The notes beneath the pieces were generated by a model, which was not told the DNA's origin, did not search any database, and worked only from the letters and a program-made list of their open reading frames with translations. From Salinivenus lutea (GTDB lineage: Bacteria; Bacteroidota; Rhodothermia; Rhodothermales; Salinibacteraceae), in NCBI GenBank assembly GCA_002894685.1, contig NCRC01000031.1:1-37275 (forward strand): a DNA stretch of 37,275 bases, in the 5' to 3' direction. Numbering within the stretch: the first letter of the stretch is position 1; the number at the start of each line of letters is the position of its first letter. The translations under genes and the position numbers were made by a program. Of the stretch, positions 7,785-14,338 are shown in pieces.

Positions 7785-8609
7785 ATGGACCTGAAGTCGC
7801 CGCTCGTCGATTGGGTCCTGCTGGCCCTGCTCCTGGTGGCGTCCGTCTCCACCATGGCCGCCCAGAACCGGTCGCTCGTGCGGGCCGTGCGGGCCGAAGC
7901 GCTTGAACTCACCGCCCAAGTGGAAAGCGGCTTTGCCTGGATGGGCCGGTACGTGCGGGTTCTGGAGGAGAACGATGAGCTCCGCCGCGAAAACATTGCC
8001 CTCTCCAGCCAGGTCGCCCGCACCCGCTCCATCCGACAACAAAACCGCGAACTGGAGCGGCTTCTCAACCTGCGCGACAGCAGCGCCTCCCCCCTCCGGG
8101 CCGCCCGCATTGTCACCAAGGACATCTTCCGCCGCGAAAACTCCCTCACCCTGGACGTCGGCCGCCGCGACAGCGTCGCCGAGGGCATGCCCGTCATCCA
8201 CGAGAGCGGCATCGTGGGCACGGTGATGCTGGTGAGCGAGGAGTATGCGCGCGTCATGCCGTACCTCAACACCGAATTTCGCGTCTCCGCCACCATTCTG
8301 CCGCTCCAGGCGGAGGGCATTGTGCGATGGGACGGGGAGCGAATGGACCGACTCATCCTGGACCACGTCGTGAAAACCGAGCCGGTCGAGAAGGGACAGG
8401 AGGTCGTGACGAGTGGACACAGCGACGCCTTTCCCCCCGGCCGCACCATCGGCACGATCGACTCGGTACACACCCCGCCCGGCCGGAGCGAGCTCCAGAT
8501 TTTTATTCGCCCCGCCGTGCCCCTCCACGAAATCCGCCACGCCTTCGTGGTCCTCTCCACGCCCAACCCCCGGCGCCAAGCCCTTGAACAGCAGCCCGTG
8601 GGCTCATGA
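7785..8609 (+). CDS. mreC: Rod-shape-determining protein MreC
   Basis: A 274-aa bitopic inner-membrane protein that links MreB filaments to periplasmic wall synthases. One membrane segment (about residues 9-28, VDWVLLALLLVASVSTMAA) is followed by a coiled coil (about 45-90, rich in ELRREN and NRELERLL heptads) and the beta-barrel MreC core, with VGRRDSVAEGMPVIHESGIVG-type segments and the late Val-Thr-Ser-Gly-His turn. The stop codon overlaps the start of dacB in an ATGA arrangement, implying translational coupling. mreD, usually the next gene, is absent here. The start has no Shine-Dalgarno sequence. Confidence 0.93.
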   Translation: MDLKSPLVDWVLLALLLVASVSTMAAQNRSLVRAVRAEALELTAQVESGFAWMGRYVRVLEENDELRRENIALSSQVARTRSIRQQNRELERLLNLRDSSASPLRAARIVTKDIFRRENSLTLDVGRRDSVAEGMPVIHESGIVGTVMLVSEEYARVMPYLNTEFRVSATILPLQAEGIVRWDGERMDRLILDHVVKTEPVEKGQEVVTSGHSDAFPPGRTIGTIDSVHTPPGRSELQIFIRPAVPLHEIRHAFVVLSTPNPRRQALEQQPVGS

Positions 8610-10156
8610 CCCTGTCCTTTCCCCCGCGCCCGTCCCGTCCCTTCTCCTGTCCGCCCTGGATCGTCGGCGTGGCGGTTCTCCTCCTGACCGCCGCGCCCCC
8701 TGCCCAGGCCCAGCCGGCCACGCCCACCCCCCGCGAACAGCTCGCCCAGGCGGTCACTGAGGCCGTAGAGTCGGACGCCTTCGGCGGCGGGTTCTGGGGG
8801 GTTCAGGTCGTGAACCTCCGGTCGGGGGAGGTCCTGCACGCCCGGAATGCGGCCCGCCCGTTCGTCCCCGCCTCCAACGTGAAGCTGCTGACCACCGCCG
8901 CGGCCCTCGAGCAGCTGGGCCCCGACTATCGCTTCACCACGACGGCGTATGCCACCGGCCCCGTCGACGACGGCGCCCTTCAGGGCCACCTCCTCGTTCG
9001 GGGCGCCGGCGACCCCACCCTCGGCGGCTACCACCAGCGACGCGACCCGGCCCAGGTCTTCCGACAGTGGGCCGACTCGCTCCGGCAAGCCGGCATCACC
9101 CGCATCGACGGCAACGTCATTGGCGACGCCGGGCCCGTCCCGGACCCTCCGTATGGACACGGGTGGAGCTGGGAGGACCTTTCGTACGGGTACGGCGCCC
9201 CCATTGGCGGCCTGATTTTCAACGAGAACACGGTCGACCTCACGGTTCGCGGCCGCACCGTCGGGGAGCCCGGACGGGTGCAGCTCACCCCCTTCCCGAC
9301 CGAGTACGTATCGGTCATCAACCGATCGCGGACGGTCCCCCCCACCGCCGAAGACGACGAAGACTACCTCCGCGTGCCCGGCACAAACACCATCCGGGTC
9401 CGCACCCGCGTCCACCCCGGCGTGGTCGAGGACGCGACGATCGCCATTTCGGAGCCGACCCGCTACTTTACACACAGCCTGCGCGCAGTCCTCCAACGAA
9501 ACGGCATCTCCGTGGACGGGCAGGCCACGAGCCTCGACGCCGTCGGGCTTACGCCCCACTACCGGGATTCCTCGTACCAGCGGGTGGCCTCGTACACCTC
9601 TCCCCCGCTCGCCCGGATCGCCCGCACACTCAACTACGAGAGCCGGAACCTGTACGCGGAGCAGCTGCTCCGCACGCTCGCCCTCGAGGTCGTGCCCGAC
9701 ACCACCGACGATCCCCCACCCGGCACGCCCGCCCGGGGCATCGAGGCGGTCCACGAGACCCTCCTTCGGGCCGGCGTGGACACGAGCCGCGTCGAGCTGG
9801 CCGACGGCTCCGGACTGTCGCGGCAAAACCTCCTTGCCCCCCGCGCCGTGGTGAAGGTGCTGCGGCACATGTGGAGTCACCCGGATTCCACGACGAGCAG
9901 CGCCTTCTACGAGTCCCTGCCGCAGGGAGGGGACGACGGAACGCTCTCGTACCGCTTCCGCGCCCCCGACGCCGCGACCGTCCGCGCCAAAACGGGCACC
10001 CTCTCCCACGTCAGCGCCCTGAGCGGATACACCACCACGGCCCAGGGCACCCCGGTTGCCTTCTCAATCCTCTCCAATCACCATCTCGCGGAGAGCAGCC
10101 GGGCCCGCGCCGCCCAGGACACCATCGTGAACGCCATCGGCCGCCTTCCCCTCTGA
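8606..10156 (+). CDS. dacB: D-alanyl-D-alanine carboxypeptidase/endopeptidase, PBP4 family (peptidase S13)
   Basis: A 516-aa periplasmic serine peptidase that trims peptide stems or cross-links of peptidoglycan. The N-terminus is a signal peptide (hydrophobic core about residues 17-30, probable cleavage after AQA near 35). The three penicillin-binding motifs are present: SNVK with nucleophile Ser90 and Lys93, SRN at 346-348, and KTG at 462-464. The long insertion between the first two motifs is typical of the PBP4/DacB class. The first four bases overlap the end of mreC, so synthesis is likely coupled to the Mre proteins. It is followed by tandem hairpins at 10192-10272. Confidence 0.93.
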   Translation: MTLSFPPRPSRPFSCPPWIVGVAVLLLTAAPPAQAQPATPTPREQLAQAVTEAVESDAFGGGFWGVQVVNLRSGEVLHARNAARPFVPASNVKLLTTAAALEQLGPDYRFTTTAYATGPVDDGALQGHLLVRGAGDPTLGGYHQRRDPAQVFRQWADSLRQAGITRIDGNVIGDAGPVPDPPYGHGWSWEDLSYGYGAPIGGLIFNENTVDLTVRGRTVGEPGRVQLTPFPTEYVSVINRSRTVPPTAEDDEDYLRVPGTNTIRVRTRVHPGVVEDATIAISEPTRYFTHSLRAVLQRNGISVDGQATSLDAVGLTPHYRDSSYQRVASYTSPPLARIARTLNYESRNLYAEQLLRTLALEVVPDTTDDPPPGTPARGIEAVHETLLRAGVDTSRVELADGSGLSRQNLLAPRAVVKVLRHMWSHPDSTTSSAFYESLPQGGDDGTLSYRFRAPDAATVRAKTGTLSHVSALSGYTTTAQGTPVAFSILSNHHLAESSRARAAQDTIVNAIGRLPL

Positions 10157-10191
10157 GGCCCCCCGGCCGATTGCAAGGATCGAGGGCATTC

Positions 10192-10272
10192 CTCCGTCCC
10201 GTCTTCCCGGCGCGCAACCGGAGTCGGGAGGGACGGAGCAACACAGGGGCCTGCTTTTCTTGCCCCCCGTGT
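10192..10272. terminator. Two tandem hairpins after dacB, possible terminator
   Basis: The first hairpin pairs CTCCGTCCC (10192-10200) with GGGACGGAG (10230-10238), and an inner CCCG/CGGG pairing can extend it. The second pairs ACAC plus GGGGC (10241-10250) with GCCCC plus GTGT (10262-10272); its loop contains a TTTTCTT tract. There is no clean T-run after either stem, so intrinsic termination is plausible but not certain. They separate the mre/dac genes from the hslV promoter. Confidence 0.45.
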
Positions 10273-10363
10273 CGCCGCCATAGGGGAAAGTTTTACAAAG
10301 AAGAGCCGCTTTATGCCCCACGGACACGAACCCCCGGTTCGGCTGACCGTTGAGAGGGAAGCA

Positions 10364-10371
10364 TATATTTG
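10364..10371 (+). promoter_or_regulatory. TAnnTTTG-type -7 element upstream of hslV
   Basis: TATATTTG is an exact match to the TAnnTTTG -7 consensus described for the primary sigma factor of Bacteroidota. It lies 76 bp before the hslV start in an otherwise GC-rich region. No convincing TTTG -33 element was found at the expected distance upstream, so this is a candidate only. Confidence 0.4.
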
Positions 10372-10446
10372 ACGTTTTTGCCGGTCCGCCCACTCACTCT
10401 CGTGCGGGTCGCTTCTTCCTAATTCTTGGACGCTTCCCCACTGCGC

Positions 10447-11013
10447 ATGACTCCTACGACCGACGATCCTCACGCCACGACAGTTCTCGGCATCCGCCAC
10501 AACGGCCGCATCGTGATCGGGTCCGACGGACAGGCCACCATGGGAGACACGGTGATGAAGCACAAAGCCGAGAAGGTGCGCTCCCTGTACGACGGGGAGG
10601 TCCTGGCCGGCTTTGCGGGGTCCACGGCCGATGCCTTCACCCTCTTCGAACGCTTTGAAGAAAAGCTGCGAGAGTACGGCGGCAATCTTACCCGCGCCGC
10701 CGTGGAACTCGCAAAGGAGTGGCGGACAGACAAGTATCTCCGGCGCCTGGAAGCCCTTCTTGTGGTCGCGTCGCCCCGCCGCCTGCTTCTAATTAGCGGG
10801 AGTGGCGACGTCATTGAACCGGACGACGACATTGTGTCCATCGGCTCCGGCGGGCCCTTTGCCCTGGCGGCCACCCGGGCCCTTCTCCAGCAGGCCGACG
10901 ACCTGTCGGCCCGCGAGATTGTCGAGAGCGGGCTTTCGATTGCCGCCGACATTTGTATTTACACGAATCATAACCGCACCATCCTGGAGATCGACGCCGA
11001 ATCCGACGAGTAG
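10447..11013 (+). CDS. hslV: ATP-dependent protease HslV, proteolytic subunit
   Basis: A 188-aa threonine peptidase that forms the double-hexameric proteolytic core of HslUV in the cytoplasm. The sequence [20 protein letters not shown] is the family N-terminus; autoprocessing is expected to expose Thr11 as nucleophile, leaving a 10-residue leader similar in kind to Bacillus ClpQ. Also seen are [24 protein letters not shown], a [16 protein letters not shown] segment and [13 protein letters not shown]-like text. The ATG at 10447 was chosen over 10426 because it gives the shorter leader. HslU is not the next gene: a NYN-domain gene begins 58 bp downstream. Confidence 0.95.
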
Positions 11014-11071
11014 GTCGGGGCGCCTCTCCGGGTCCGTGCACACCGATTTTTCGACAGATCCGATTCCATTT

Positions 11072-12229
11072 ATGCTAACGGCCCCTACCCAACCGACGGA
11101 CCAGCCCCAACGGGCGGCCATGTTCGTCGACTACGACAACCTGCACTCGGTCCTCACCACCCAAAGCTCGACGGATCAGCGCACCAGCACCTACACCTTC
11201 GAAATTCTCAACGAGGTGCGCCGCTACCTCGAGGAAGGAGACGACACGCCGACCATTCTGGGCCGCGCCTACGGGGCCTTCGACACGCGCCTGAAGGCCG
11301 AGGAGGGAGACGTGCCCTCCCGGCTGTACCGCTCCGGATTCGAACCGAAGTACGTCTCGAATGAGACGCAGCGAAACGCCTCCGAAATCCAGCTGACCCT
11401 CGACGCCTCCCAGTTCCTGCTGGAGCGGTCGGACGTCCAGATGGTGGTCATCGTCACCGGGAACCGCCCCTACCTCCCCCTGGCCCGCCGCATTCGGGAG
11501 CAGGGGCGCCGGGTGCTCATCGCGGCCGTCAACCCGCCCCAGTCGGAGAACGCCCCCGCCATCGCGGAGGACGACCTGTACCTCGACGCGCGCAACCTCT
11601 TGAGCCGGGAGTCTCGTGAAGACCTGCTCGCCAACGCCCCACAGAACGGGCACTCCCGAAGCCGTCGGGGCGCCGTGGGCCACCCGCCGCCCCGCCGCTA
11701 TCAGGAGCTGACCAATCCGACGGCCCGTCGTACGATCGACATTACGGACGAGCACTTTGGGCAGTACGAGGAAGTGTACCTCACCCCGCTTCTTCGGAAG
11801 CTCTCGGACGTGCTGGGTCCGTCGCACGACCCCAAGGCCCTCGTGGGCGAATTGGAGGCGGCCGGGGCCGTCCGCCTCGAGAAACGGGAAGGCCACCCGT
11901 ACGACTACACCGTCCTCATCCTCAACGACGACCACCCGGACGTCCAAGAGATCCGCTCGGGCGACGGTGCCCCCGAATCGTCCTCCGACGCGGCCCCCGC
12001 CCCGTCTCCGTCGGACGACGACGCGGCCGCGGACCCGTCGGAGTCGACTGACCCGGACGCCGAGGCCCCCGAGGAGCCGTCGGAGGCCCGTGACGATCCG
12101 GGCGCAGAGGACGAGCCGGTCGATTACGACGAATACCTCATGGACAACGCCCTGTCGTCGGATGAGCCGGACGCCGATCCGGAGGACGAGTCGGCCGCCT
12201 CAGACGCCCCAGAGACGCCCACCCGGTAG
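11072..12229 (+). CDS. NYN/LabA-like (DUF88) domain protein with degenerate active site and acidic tail
   Basis: A 385-aa protein. Residues 14 to about 165 resemble the NYN (PIN-like) ribonuclease fold of the LabA/DUF88 family: [14 protein letters not shown] supplies the first Asp (Asp20), a central helix contains SEIQLTLD (Glu105, Asp111), and [21 protein letters not shown] matches the usual strand-loop-helix. There the family motif S-G-D-x-D-F is replaced by T-G-N-R-P-Y (129-134), so two metal-binding acids are missing. A second small domain (about 225-290, [13 protein letters not shown] then a strand YDYTVLIL) looks like a winged helix. The last 90 residues are Asp/Glu/Ser/Pro-rich. It lies between hslV (58 bp) and hslU (44 bp) in the same direction, so co-expression is likely. 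Its function is unknown; a nucleic-acid-binding pseudo-nuclease is an inference. Confidence 0.8.
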
Positions 12230-12273
12230 TCTTTCCCCTTCTTTTCGAGTCGATCGTTGATCGTAATTCCCCC

Positions 12274-13716
<1,443 letters not shown>

Positions 13717-13760
13717 TCCGCCGCGCTGGGGGCCGCAGCCCCCGCAGACCCAAAACAAAA

Positions 13761-13792
13761 AAAAGGGCAGGTCCGGCCGGACCTGCCCTTTT
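13761..13792. terminator. Bidirectional intrinsic terminator between hslU and bacilliredoxin gene
   Basis: A near-perfect inverted repeat: AAAAGGGCAGGTCC pairs with GGACCTGCCCTTTT around a 4-nt centre GGCC. Purine A-runs on the left and T on the right allow termination on both strands. It lies between two convergent genes, 45 bp after the hslU stop and 31 bp from the stop of the opposite gene. Confidence 0.9.
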
Positions 13793-13822
13793 CGATGTGT
13801 ATACGGTCCCCGCGGCGTGCGG

Positions 13823-14338
13823 CTAGTTGATCGACTGAAACGTGGACGGCACGTCATTGCCTCCGCCAGACGGCTCCTCCGGGCGCGACGGGGCGTCGGC
13901 GGCCGGGGCCTCGTCCCCGCAGTACGCCTCAAAGGCCGTCACCAGGTCCGAGGCGATGGCGTTTGGGCTGCGGCCCTCAATGTGCTTGCGTTCCACTACG
14001 TAGACGGGCTGTCCATCCCGGAACAGCGCCATGAAGGGCGAGGACGGGGGAATGCCGGGCAGGTACTCCTCCCGAACGTGCTCGGTCGCTTCCAGGTCTT
14101 GTCCGGCAAAGACCGTGACCTGGTGGTCCGGCTGGGGCTCGGCCTCGCTCGCCAGGCCTACGGCGGGACGCGCGCTCCCCGCGGCACACCCGCACACGGA
14201 GTTCAGGACGAGAAACATCGTGTCGCCGTCGGCCTGCTCAAAGGCAGTGTCCACCTCATCGGGCGTTCTCAATTCGTCGAACCCAAGTCGCGTGAGCTCC
14301 TCGCGCATGGGCTCGACCATTGCTTTGGGGTACGGCAT
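13823..14338 (-). CDS. Bacilliredoxin BrxA/BrxB family protein
   Basis: A 171-aa protein very similar by recall to Bacillus YphP/YqiW, thiol-disulfide oxidoreductases that remove bacillithiol from proteins. The characteristic C-G-C active site is present in LVLNSVCGCAAGSARP (Cys49, Cys51). Downstream family blocks are VTVFAGQDLEAT, PPSSPFMALFRDGQPVYVVERKHIEG and LVTAFEAYC. About 25 residues at the C-terminus are an added Pro/Glu/Asp-rich tail. The start is the ATG giving MPYPKAM; the frame is open further upstream but that text is not family-like and would invade the promoter of the divergent lipoprotein gene. The organism may use bacillithiol; this is inferred from the family. Confidence 0.92.
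   Translation of the reverse strand: MPYPKAMVEPMREELTRLGFDELRTPDEVDTAFEQADGDTMFLVLNSVCGCAAGSARPAVGLASEAEPQPDHQVTVFAGQDLEATEHVREEYLPGIPPSSPFMALFRDGQPVYVVERKHIEGRSPNAIASDLVTAFEAYCGDEAPAADAPSRPEEPSGGGNDVPSTFQSIN

Follow-up and report, generated by a model that had tools for sequence, protein, structure and literature searches.

Why should hslV and hslU, which encode the HslUV protease, be separated by a gene for a NYN nuclease-like domain joined to a winged helix, and is the product of that gene tied to the protease? The question arises from a 37,275-nucleotide stretch of Salinivenus lutea DNA, here called the window. A first-pass annotation, made from the sequence by a model, had placed a 385-aa gene between hslV and hslU, in the same direction and with gaps of 58 and 44 bp, and the coordinates of the open reading frames bear this out: the hslV stop codon ends at 11013, 58 bp ahead of the ATG of the NYN gene at 11072, whose own stop codon ends at 12229, 44 bp ahead of the hslU ATG at 12274, all on the same strand (Table 1).

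Table 1. Genes, domains and residues of the hslV-hslU locus, in window coordinates
Feature	Position	Strand	Basis
hslV, peptidase subunit of HslUV	10426-11013	+	NCBIfam TIGR03692, 270.1 bits; PRK05456, 275.8 bits
NYN-winged-helix gene, 385 aa, inserted between hslV and hslU	11072-12229	+	ORF list
NYN (PIN-like) domain, about residues 14-166	11111-11569	+	PF01936; structural match to 5yaa_A
Asp20, sole catalytic-site acid kept in every member	11129-11131	+	105/105; 0 changes on tree
Ser104-Glu105; Asp at 105 in intact-site relatives	11381-11386	+	alignment
T-G-N-R-P-Y (129-134), replacing S/T-G-D-x-D-F/Y	11456-11473	+	alignment
Winged helix, about residues 213-296	11708-11959	+	predicted fold, structural matches, column conservation
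F-G-Q-Y block, residues 229-232	11756-11767	+	kept in order, absent in 12 unlinked homologues
Acidic tail, residues 297-385 (89 residues)	11960-12226	+	sequence composition, strongly acidic
hslU, ATPase subunit of HslUV	12274-13716	+	NCBIfam TIGR00390, 641.7 bits

The hslUV locus and its conservation

Upstream of hslV lies the gene for an S13 (D-Ala-D-Ala) carboxypeptidase (8606-10156), itself preceded by mreC (7785-8609). The listed start of hslV is a TTG, with an in-frame ATG at 10447; read from that ATG, HslV seems to have a short extra stretch at its N-terminus ahead of the expected mature Thr-Thr-Val-Leu-Gly (10426-10476), at the place where the HslV of another genome of the order (G075) has M-T-P-I-H-A. 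A promoter scan of positions 8500-14200 returned none against 0.4 expected. In the same interval seven terminator-like sites are called on the minus strand against 3.4 expected, and none on the plus strand. One of the minus-strand sites, directly after hslU, is an inverted repeat of 15 pairs that ends in a T run (13760-13793); read on the plus strand, where it is not called as a terminator, it ends in TTTTC, and it may close either the hslUV unit or a convergent open reading frame. The same direction and short gaps were taken in the first-pass annotation to imply shared expression, and the NYN-winged-helix protein is probably made together with the protease.

The gene is found in 108 of 114 sampled genomes of the order Rhodothermales and in none of 130 sampled genomes of the class outside this order (of the 244 class genomes searched, the same 108 match). 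With HslV and HslU located by BLAST at these loci, 106 of the 108 genomes have hslV on the same strand no more than 700 nt upstream, and hslU follows within 900 nt in 102 of the 103 testable genomes, the contig ending first in the five others. Because it recurs through the order, the arrangement is more than chance, and the place between hslV and hslU is conserved as expected of an operon component. The nearest named relative of the window protein comes from Salinivenus iranica CB7 (98% over residues 1-191); other relatives are from Salinibacter altiplanensis, a Rhodothermaceae, a Rhodothermales bacterium and less specific records. At the 15 loci sampled from the class outside the order, hslV and hslU stand side by side on one strand in every case, with fewer than 40 bases between them in 14 and 317 in the remaining one.

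The linkage to hslV is broken in G075, where hslV is 1.6 kb off, and in G077, where there is no hslV within 18 kb upstream (locus L164). These two genomes, in which hslV has parted from the NYN gene, belong to one genus of family f12; in G075 other open reading frames lie between the two genes (L120, 882-2484), one of them resembling a TetR-type regulator by eye. The linkage to hslU is broken in G073, which has no hslU in the 2.5 kb downstream. The genomes of the order without the gene are G002, G084, G049 and the three of family f14 (G105, G106, G107). Neither hslV nor hslU is matched in G002 and G084; in G049 and the f14 trio hslV and hslU are adjacent, 43-77 bases apart. The gene is thus not required wherever HslUV occurs, four genomes of the order having hslUV without it. 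A tree of HslV plus HslU, computed from the 116 loci at which enough of each protein was present, has f14 as the earliest branch of the order at a weak node (0.22), which would fit an insertion of the NYN gene after f14 had split off; G049 branches, with weak support, among the gene-bearing families.

Two further genes served as controls for synteny. The S13 carboxypeptidase gene lies upstream of hslV in 88 of the 103 loci of the order tested and also at each of the four that lack the NYN gene, and the open reading frame taken as the window's next gene past hslU recurs in none of 66 loci. Since the S13 gene is linked to hslV as well, the strict linkage is only partly special to the NYN gene.

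Domain architecture and predicted structure

The proposed relationship of the first half of the protein to NYN domains stands. Pfam NYN (PF01936) matches residues 14-165 at 48.7 bits, well past its cut-off of 24.2, in what is the only PF01936 match of the window genome, and at E up to 1 it matches all 83 family members aligned. Structures were predicted from alignments of 83 and 46 rows. The AlphaFold model from the 83-row alignment (mean pLDDT 88.6, pTM 0.69) shows a NYN fold and then a winged helix. Its NYN part aligns to solved NYN domains at Z 16.0, 15.3 and 14.4, which identifies the predicted fold as PIN-like; against the NYN domain of MARF1 (5yaa_A), VIA-align gives Z 16.0 and an rmsd of 2.5 over 145 residues. 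The best profile match in the PDB is VPA0982 of Vibrio parahaemolyticus (2qip; E 9.6e-05), onto which the NYN model fits with Z 14.4 and an rmsd of 2.8 over 151 residues. VPA0982 differs from the window protein in consisting of a NYN domain alone and in having an intact G-D-G-D-F motif.

The winged-helix-like domain that had been read in the second half is found in the predicted model from about residue 213, and the C-terminal part of 89 residues, folded alone, again gives a winged-helix pattern (pLDDT 91.2). Its best VIA-align row is a MukBEF chain (9gm7_C; Z 10.0, rmsd 2.5, 86 residues), followed by SarX (5hs5_A; Z 9.8, rmsd 3.1, 86 residues) and then by many other winged helices; Foldseek with the winged helix returned no match at E 0.001 or better. 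Pfam matches no domain in the C-terminus of the window protein, and OST-HTH (PF12872) does not match the protein at E up to 1. Among 25 of the 29 families listed for the 83 members there is neither a C-terminal Pfam domain nor a match to OST-HTH, and a profile-profile comparison of the winged helix with OST-HTH gave no match. A search of PDB sequences with the winged-helix profile returned two hits, a 'tendon repeat' chain of designed appearance at 0.0085 and another at 1.2, neither of which was used; with the whole protein as query, phmmer found a single chance-level hit in the PDB.

Conservation was measured in a 105-row alignment drawn from 112 extracted sequences, leaving out four fragments (L137, L138, L141, L142) and three paralogues (L139, L140, L143). 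On average the commonest residue of a column has a share of 0.44 in the NYN domain, 0.69 in the winged helix and 0.91 in residues 228-245; the corresponding values for HslU and HslV are 0.75 and 0.83, computed from 98 genomes in which the border between the two proteins was set approximately. Nineteen columns are kept in at least 104 of the 105 members: Asp20 is the only one of them in the NYN domain, and the winged helix has the other 18, Arg242, Lys255 and Arg272 among them. The F-G-Q-Y block is likewise nearly uniform (F in 105, G in 104, Q in 97 and Y in 105 of the 105). The acidic tail also proved real, with 89 strongly acidic residues after residue 296 of the window protein; across the family it varies from 9 to 136 residues, and its median net charge is negative in each of the 14 gene-bearing families.

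This architecture, an N-terminal NYN domain followed by a winged helix, resembles that of the bacterial proteins that join a LabA-like (DUF88) NYN domain, also called an LK-nuclease, to an OST-HTH (LOTUS) winged helix, and which the available text of one study predicts to be RNases with an RNA-binding arm (PMC2848206). The NYN domains of the two align in a profile comparison, with an hhalign probability of 98.5 over 149 columns. However, the window family differs from the LK-nuclease proteins in that its catalytic acids are eroded in most members, in that sequence comparison does not connect its winged helix with OST-HTH, and in its strict gene neighborhood, whereas for the LK-nuclease proteins the same text reports no conserved neighborhoods with known RNA-processing systems (PMC2848206). 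Further NYN proteins whose sites are intact are encoded in some genomes of the order (L139, L140, L143, L186, L185); the first four match Pfam OST-HTH to varying degrees, two of them above the cut-off, and form a separate LabA-like lineage.

Erosion of the catalytic site

The degraded site described at first is present in the window protein, with T-G-N-R-P-Y at 129-134 and S-E at 104-105. The catalytic positions are thus occupied by Asp20, Glu105, Asn131 and Pro133, which do not amount to an acidic metal site. Asn131 and Pro133, whose conservation the first-pass annotation had proposed to tabulate, are not conserved. Position 131 is Asp in 48 members, Asn in 43 and another residue in 14 of the 105, and position 133 is Pro in 23, Trp in 22, Leu in 18 and Asp in 12; 12 genomes keep every acid. 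Position 105 is Glu in 58, Ala in 18 and Asp in 13 members. The 12 sequences with all catalytic acids, whose motif reads G-D-R-D-Y, are exactly those of families f9 (3) and f12 (9), and the second Asp of G-D-x-D is gone from the remaining 93. In these 93 the NYN region has just two acidic columns conserved at 80% or more, Asp20 and the Asp or Glu at position 111 (present in 100 of the 105 members), and column conservation in that region reveals no new conserved acid that could stand in for those lost.

Human MARF1 (Limkain b1; 6fdl and 5yaa), a structural relative that shares the NYN fold and, like the window protein, lacks the second Asp of the motif, cuts RNA with active-site residues Asp358, 426, 427 and 452, according to the available text of its description (PMC6294520). 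Its motif aligns as S-T-D-V-N-F, in which the Asp of S-T-D is, by counting, Asp452. Because this active RNase has Asn where the second Asp would be, the loss at position 133 alone proves little. MARF1 keeps Asp452 (PMC6294520, same text), whereas the window protein has Asn at the equivalent position 131, and it is this change that argues against cleavage. Judged by Glu105, Asn131 and Pro133 together, metal-dependent cleavage would be lost or strongly weakened in the window protein. A set like that of MARF1, with Asp20, an acid at 105 and Asp131 but no Asp133, is kept by 28 members, which could still cut, so that an erosion of chemistry is not proved for them; 65 members lack the acid at 105, Asp131 or both. 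As a control, 15 other NYN proteins of the order were read by eye: all 15 keep the first Asp of the motif and 14 keep the second. A separate departure from the motif occurs in a NYN protein of the window genome's own genus (L177, in G016, about 2152-2610), where T-G-D-G-A-G-Y replaces G-D-x-D.

Unlinked homologues and the history of the family

Across the phylum, the winged-helix profile matches 42 of 394 sampled genomes (41 of the order and G298) and the full-length profile 41 (40 of the order and G298). In the family to which G298 belongs, 12 of 80 genomes match, all of them in one genus (g124). The g124 homologues are full NYN-winged-helix proteins with the two domains in identical order and score 190-210 bits against the family profile, but they differ from the window family in having all acids intact in 12 of 12, in lacking the F-G-Q-Y block in 12 of 12, and in having hslV elsewhere, on a different contig in seven genomes and, in five, on the same contig at a distance of over 100 kb. 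The proposed check, whether homologues lie between hslV and hslU, is positive within the order (106 of 108 for hslV, 102 of 103 testable for hslU) and negative for these 12 outside it. The PADLOC models do not match the window protein; one f9 homologue and one g124 homologue match the LabA-like NYN model weakly (E 2.1e-07 and 1.2e-04), which is due to the NYN domain, and a role in defence was rejected.

A tree of the family, computed with the site columns removed and rooted on g124, places f9 plus f12 as sister to all other members, with SH-aLRT values of 82 and 72 on the branches concerned and 90 for f9 plus f12. On this tree Asp133 and Asp105 each require as few as one change, the presence of any acid at 105 requires five and Asp131 requires 16. 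Positions 131 and 133 take 24 Fitch steps each and Asp20 none; 41% of the NYN columns are slower, and, the median being 27, the two positions vary like ordinary NYN columns. The rooting is an assumption, and the order of events could differ if g124 had acquired the gene from a donor like f9 or f12. Loss of the acids is the likely direction, since the NYN relatives in the order keep them too.

The genomes in which the linkage is broken (G073, G075, G077) all belong to f12 and have intact sites. All 93 eroded members are still linked to hslV, and the 92 that can be tested for hslU are all linked to it as well, against three of the 12 intact members with a broken linkage. The chance of such a distribution is about 0.001 (by hand) if genomes are independent, an assumption that fails; the stricter linkage of the eroded members is only suggestive, because the genomes are not independent and two or three events are involved.

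A possible coupling to HslUV

The first-pass annotation had suggested that the protein might be an adaptor, substrate or partner of HslUV, an idea that finds no direct support here. A comparison of 97 genomes with the gene and 19 without it reveals no HslU or HslV columns that track the gene beyond phylogeny: six columns differ between the two sets, all explained by phylogeny, and in G049, which lacks the gene, HslUV is unremarkable and none of the six is altered. Also counting against the idea, none of the 12 homologues that share both domains is encoded near hslV. We found no literature tying a NYN protein to HslUV or describing this protein, in a search whose coverage stopped short of most subscription journals and bioRxiv preprints; where NYN and HslUV do occur in one paper (PMC4229858), the two have nothing to do with each other. 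The link to HslUV rests on the position of the gene and on the stricter linkage of eroded members; it is weakened by the lack of a matching change in HslU or HslV, by the presence of the winged helix of the same family in unlinked genomes, and by the dispensability of the gene in G049 and f14. Coupling of the protein to HslUV is, judged from sequence and gene order, plausible but unproven. A partner surface would best be sought in the F-G-Q-Y block, although phylogeny alone could explain its pattern.

Possible functions

The explanation we favor, to which we give an even chance, is that an ancestral NYN nuclease with a winged helix became lodged in the hslUV unit, is by now mostly a pseudonuclease that would bind nucleic acid and, less surely, may be functionally tied to HslUV. 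In the ancestral state a metal-dependent nuclease would have been joined to a nucleic-acid-binding winged helix, and its gene would have entered the unit between hslV and hslU. Most members would then have turned into pseudonucleases while keeping the fold and Asp20, the erosion itself being seen in 93 of 105 members. The winged helix, as modeled, would bind RNA or DNA, and the NYN domain would stay as a binding or structural platform. A near-frozen winged helix, combined with a frozen Asp20 and fold and with catalytic acids that change freely, fits a protein that holds nucleic acid and does not cut it. More tentatively, the co-expression might be functional, the protein binding nucleic acid as a partner or regulator associated with HslUV and not being a required subunit.

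The chief competitor, which strikes us as somewhat unlikely, is that the gene is a passenger that uses the hslUV transcription unit for nucleic-acid work unrelated to HslUV, its adjacency being inherited. Synteny around hslV is generally high, as the S13 gene shows by its presence in 88 of 103 loci and in the four without the NYN gene; HslU and HslV show no coevolution with the NYN gene, outside the order not one of the 12 homologues is linked to hslV, and G049 and f14 manage with hslUV intact and no such gene. Yet the linkage of the NYN gene to hslV (106 of 108) is tighter than that of the S13 gene, and no eroded member has left the locus while three of the 12 intact ones have, which, with two or three events, weighs little. 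That the protein is still an active nuclease of unusual design, for which Asp20, Glu105 and Asp111 with Asn131 suffice or which needs another metal, appears distinctly unlikely. The invariance of Asp20, the acid at 111 in 100 of 105 members and the ability of MARF1 to cut RNA without the second motif Asp, in a set that 28 members share, are set against the absence from the window protein of Asp131, kept by every one of the 15 further NYN proteins inspected from the order, against the loss of the acid at 105, of Asp131 or of both in 65 of 105 members, and against the behavior of the site on the tree, where Asp131 changes at least 16 times and positions 131 and 133 behave as ordinary columns do.

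We regard as more doubtful still an autoregulator whose winged helix binds the operon's own or other promoters and thereby acts as the transcription factor of the hslUV unit. DNA-binding regulators (SarX, PadR types and MecI) are among the structures that the winged helix matches most closely, and in Bacillus the regulator gene codY adjoins clpYQ. But winged helices are common, matches at Z 8-10 do not show function, the unlinked homologues have the winged helix too, and the NYN partner points to RNA, on the available text of PMC2848206. A decaying gene or an annotation artefact without function can for practical purposes be considered refuted, its probability being negligible: the eroded active site is all that speaks for it, and against it stand the presence of the gene in 108 of 114 genomes, the 19 near-invariant columns, the confidently predicted fold and, between the window gene and its closest relative, 10 synonymous against five amino-acid-changing codon differences in the first 330 codons.

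Within the reading of the protein as a nucleic-acid-binding pseudonuclease tied to HslUV, a more specific and rather unlikely version would make it a dedicated nucleic-acid-sensing partner of the protease in this one order, derived from a captured gene for an active nuclease by stepwise loss of acids; with its NYN fold and winged helix such a protein would grip RNA or an RNP and pass the proteins bound there on to HslU, or would gate HslUV by RNA. More generally, the family offers a concrete candidate for a link between RNA and ATP-dependent proteolysis; a precedent is found in PMC4229858, which cites SmpB as promoting the proteolysis of RNase R by stimulating the binding of Lon and HslUV. With one protein fixed inside an operon across an order and intact relatives still living, the family is also a natural experiment in the passage from nuclease to binding protein, in which the order of catalytic residue loss can be inferred, Asp133 and Asp105 having gone once and Asp131 many times.
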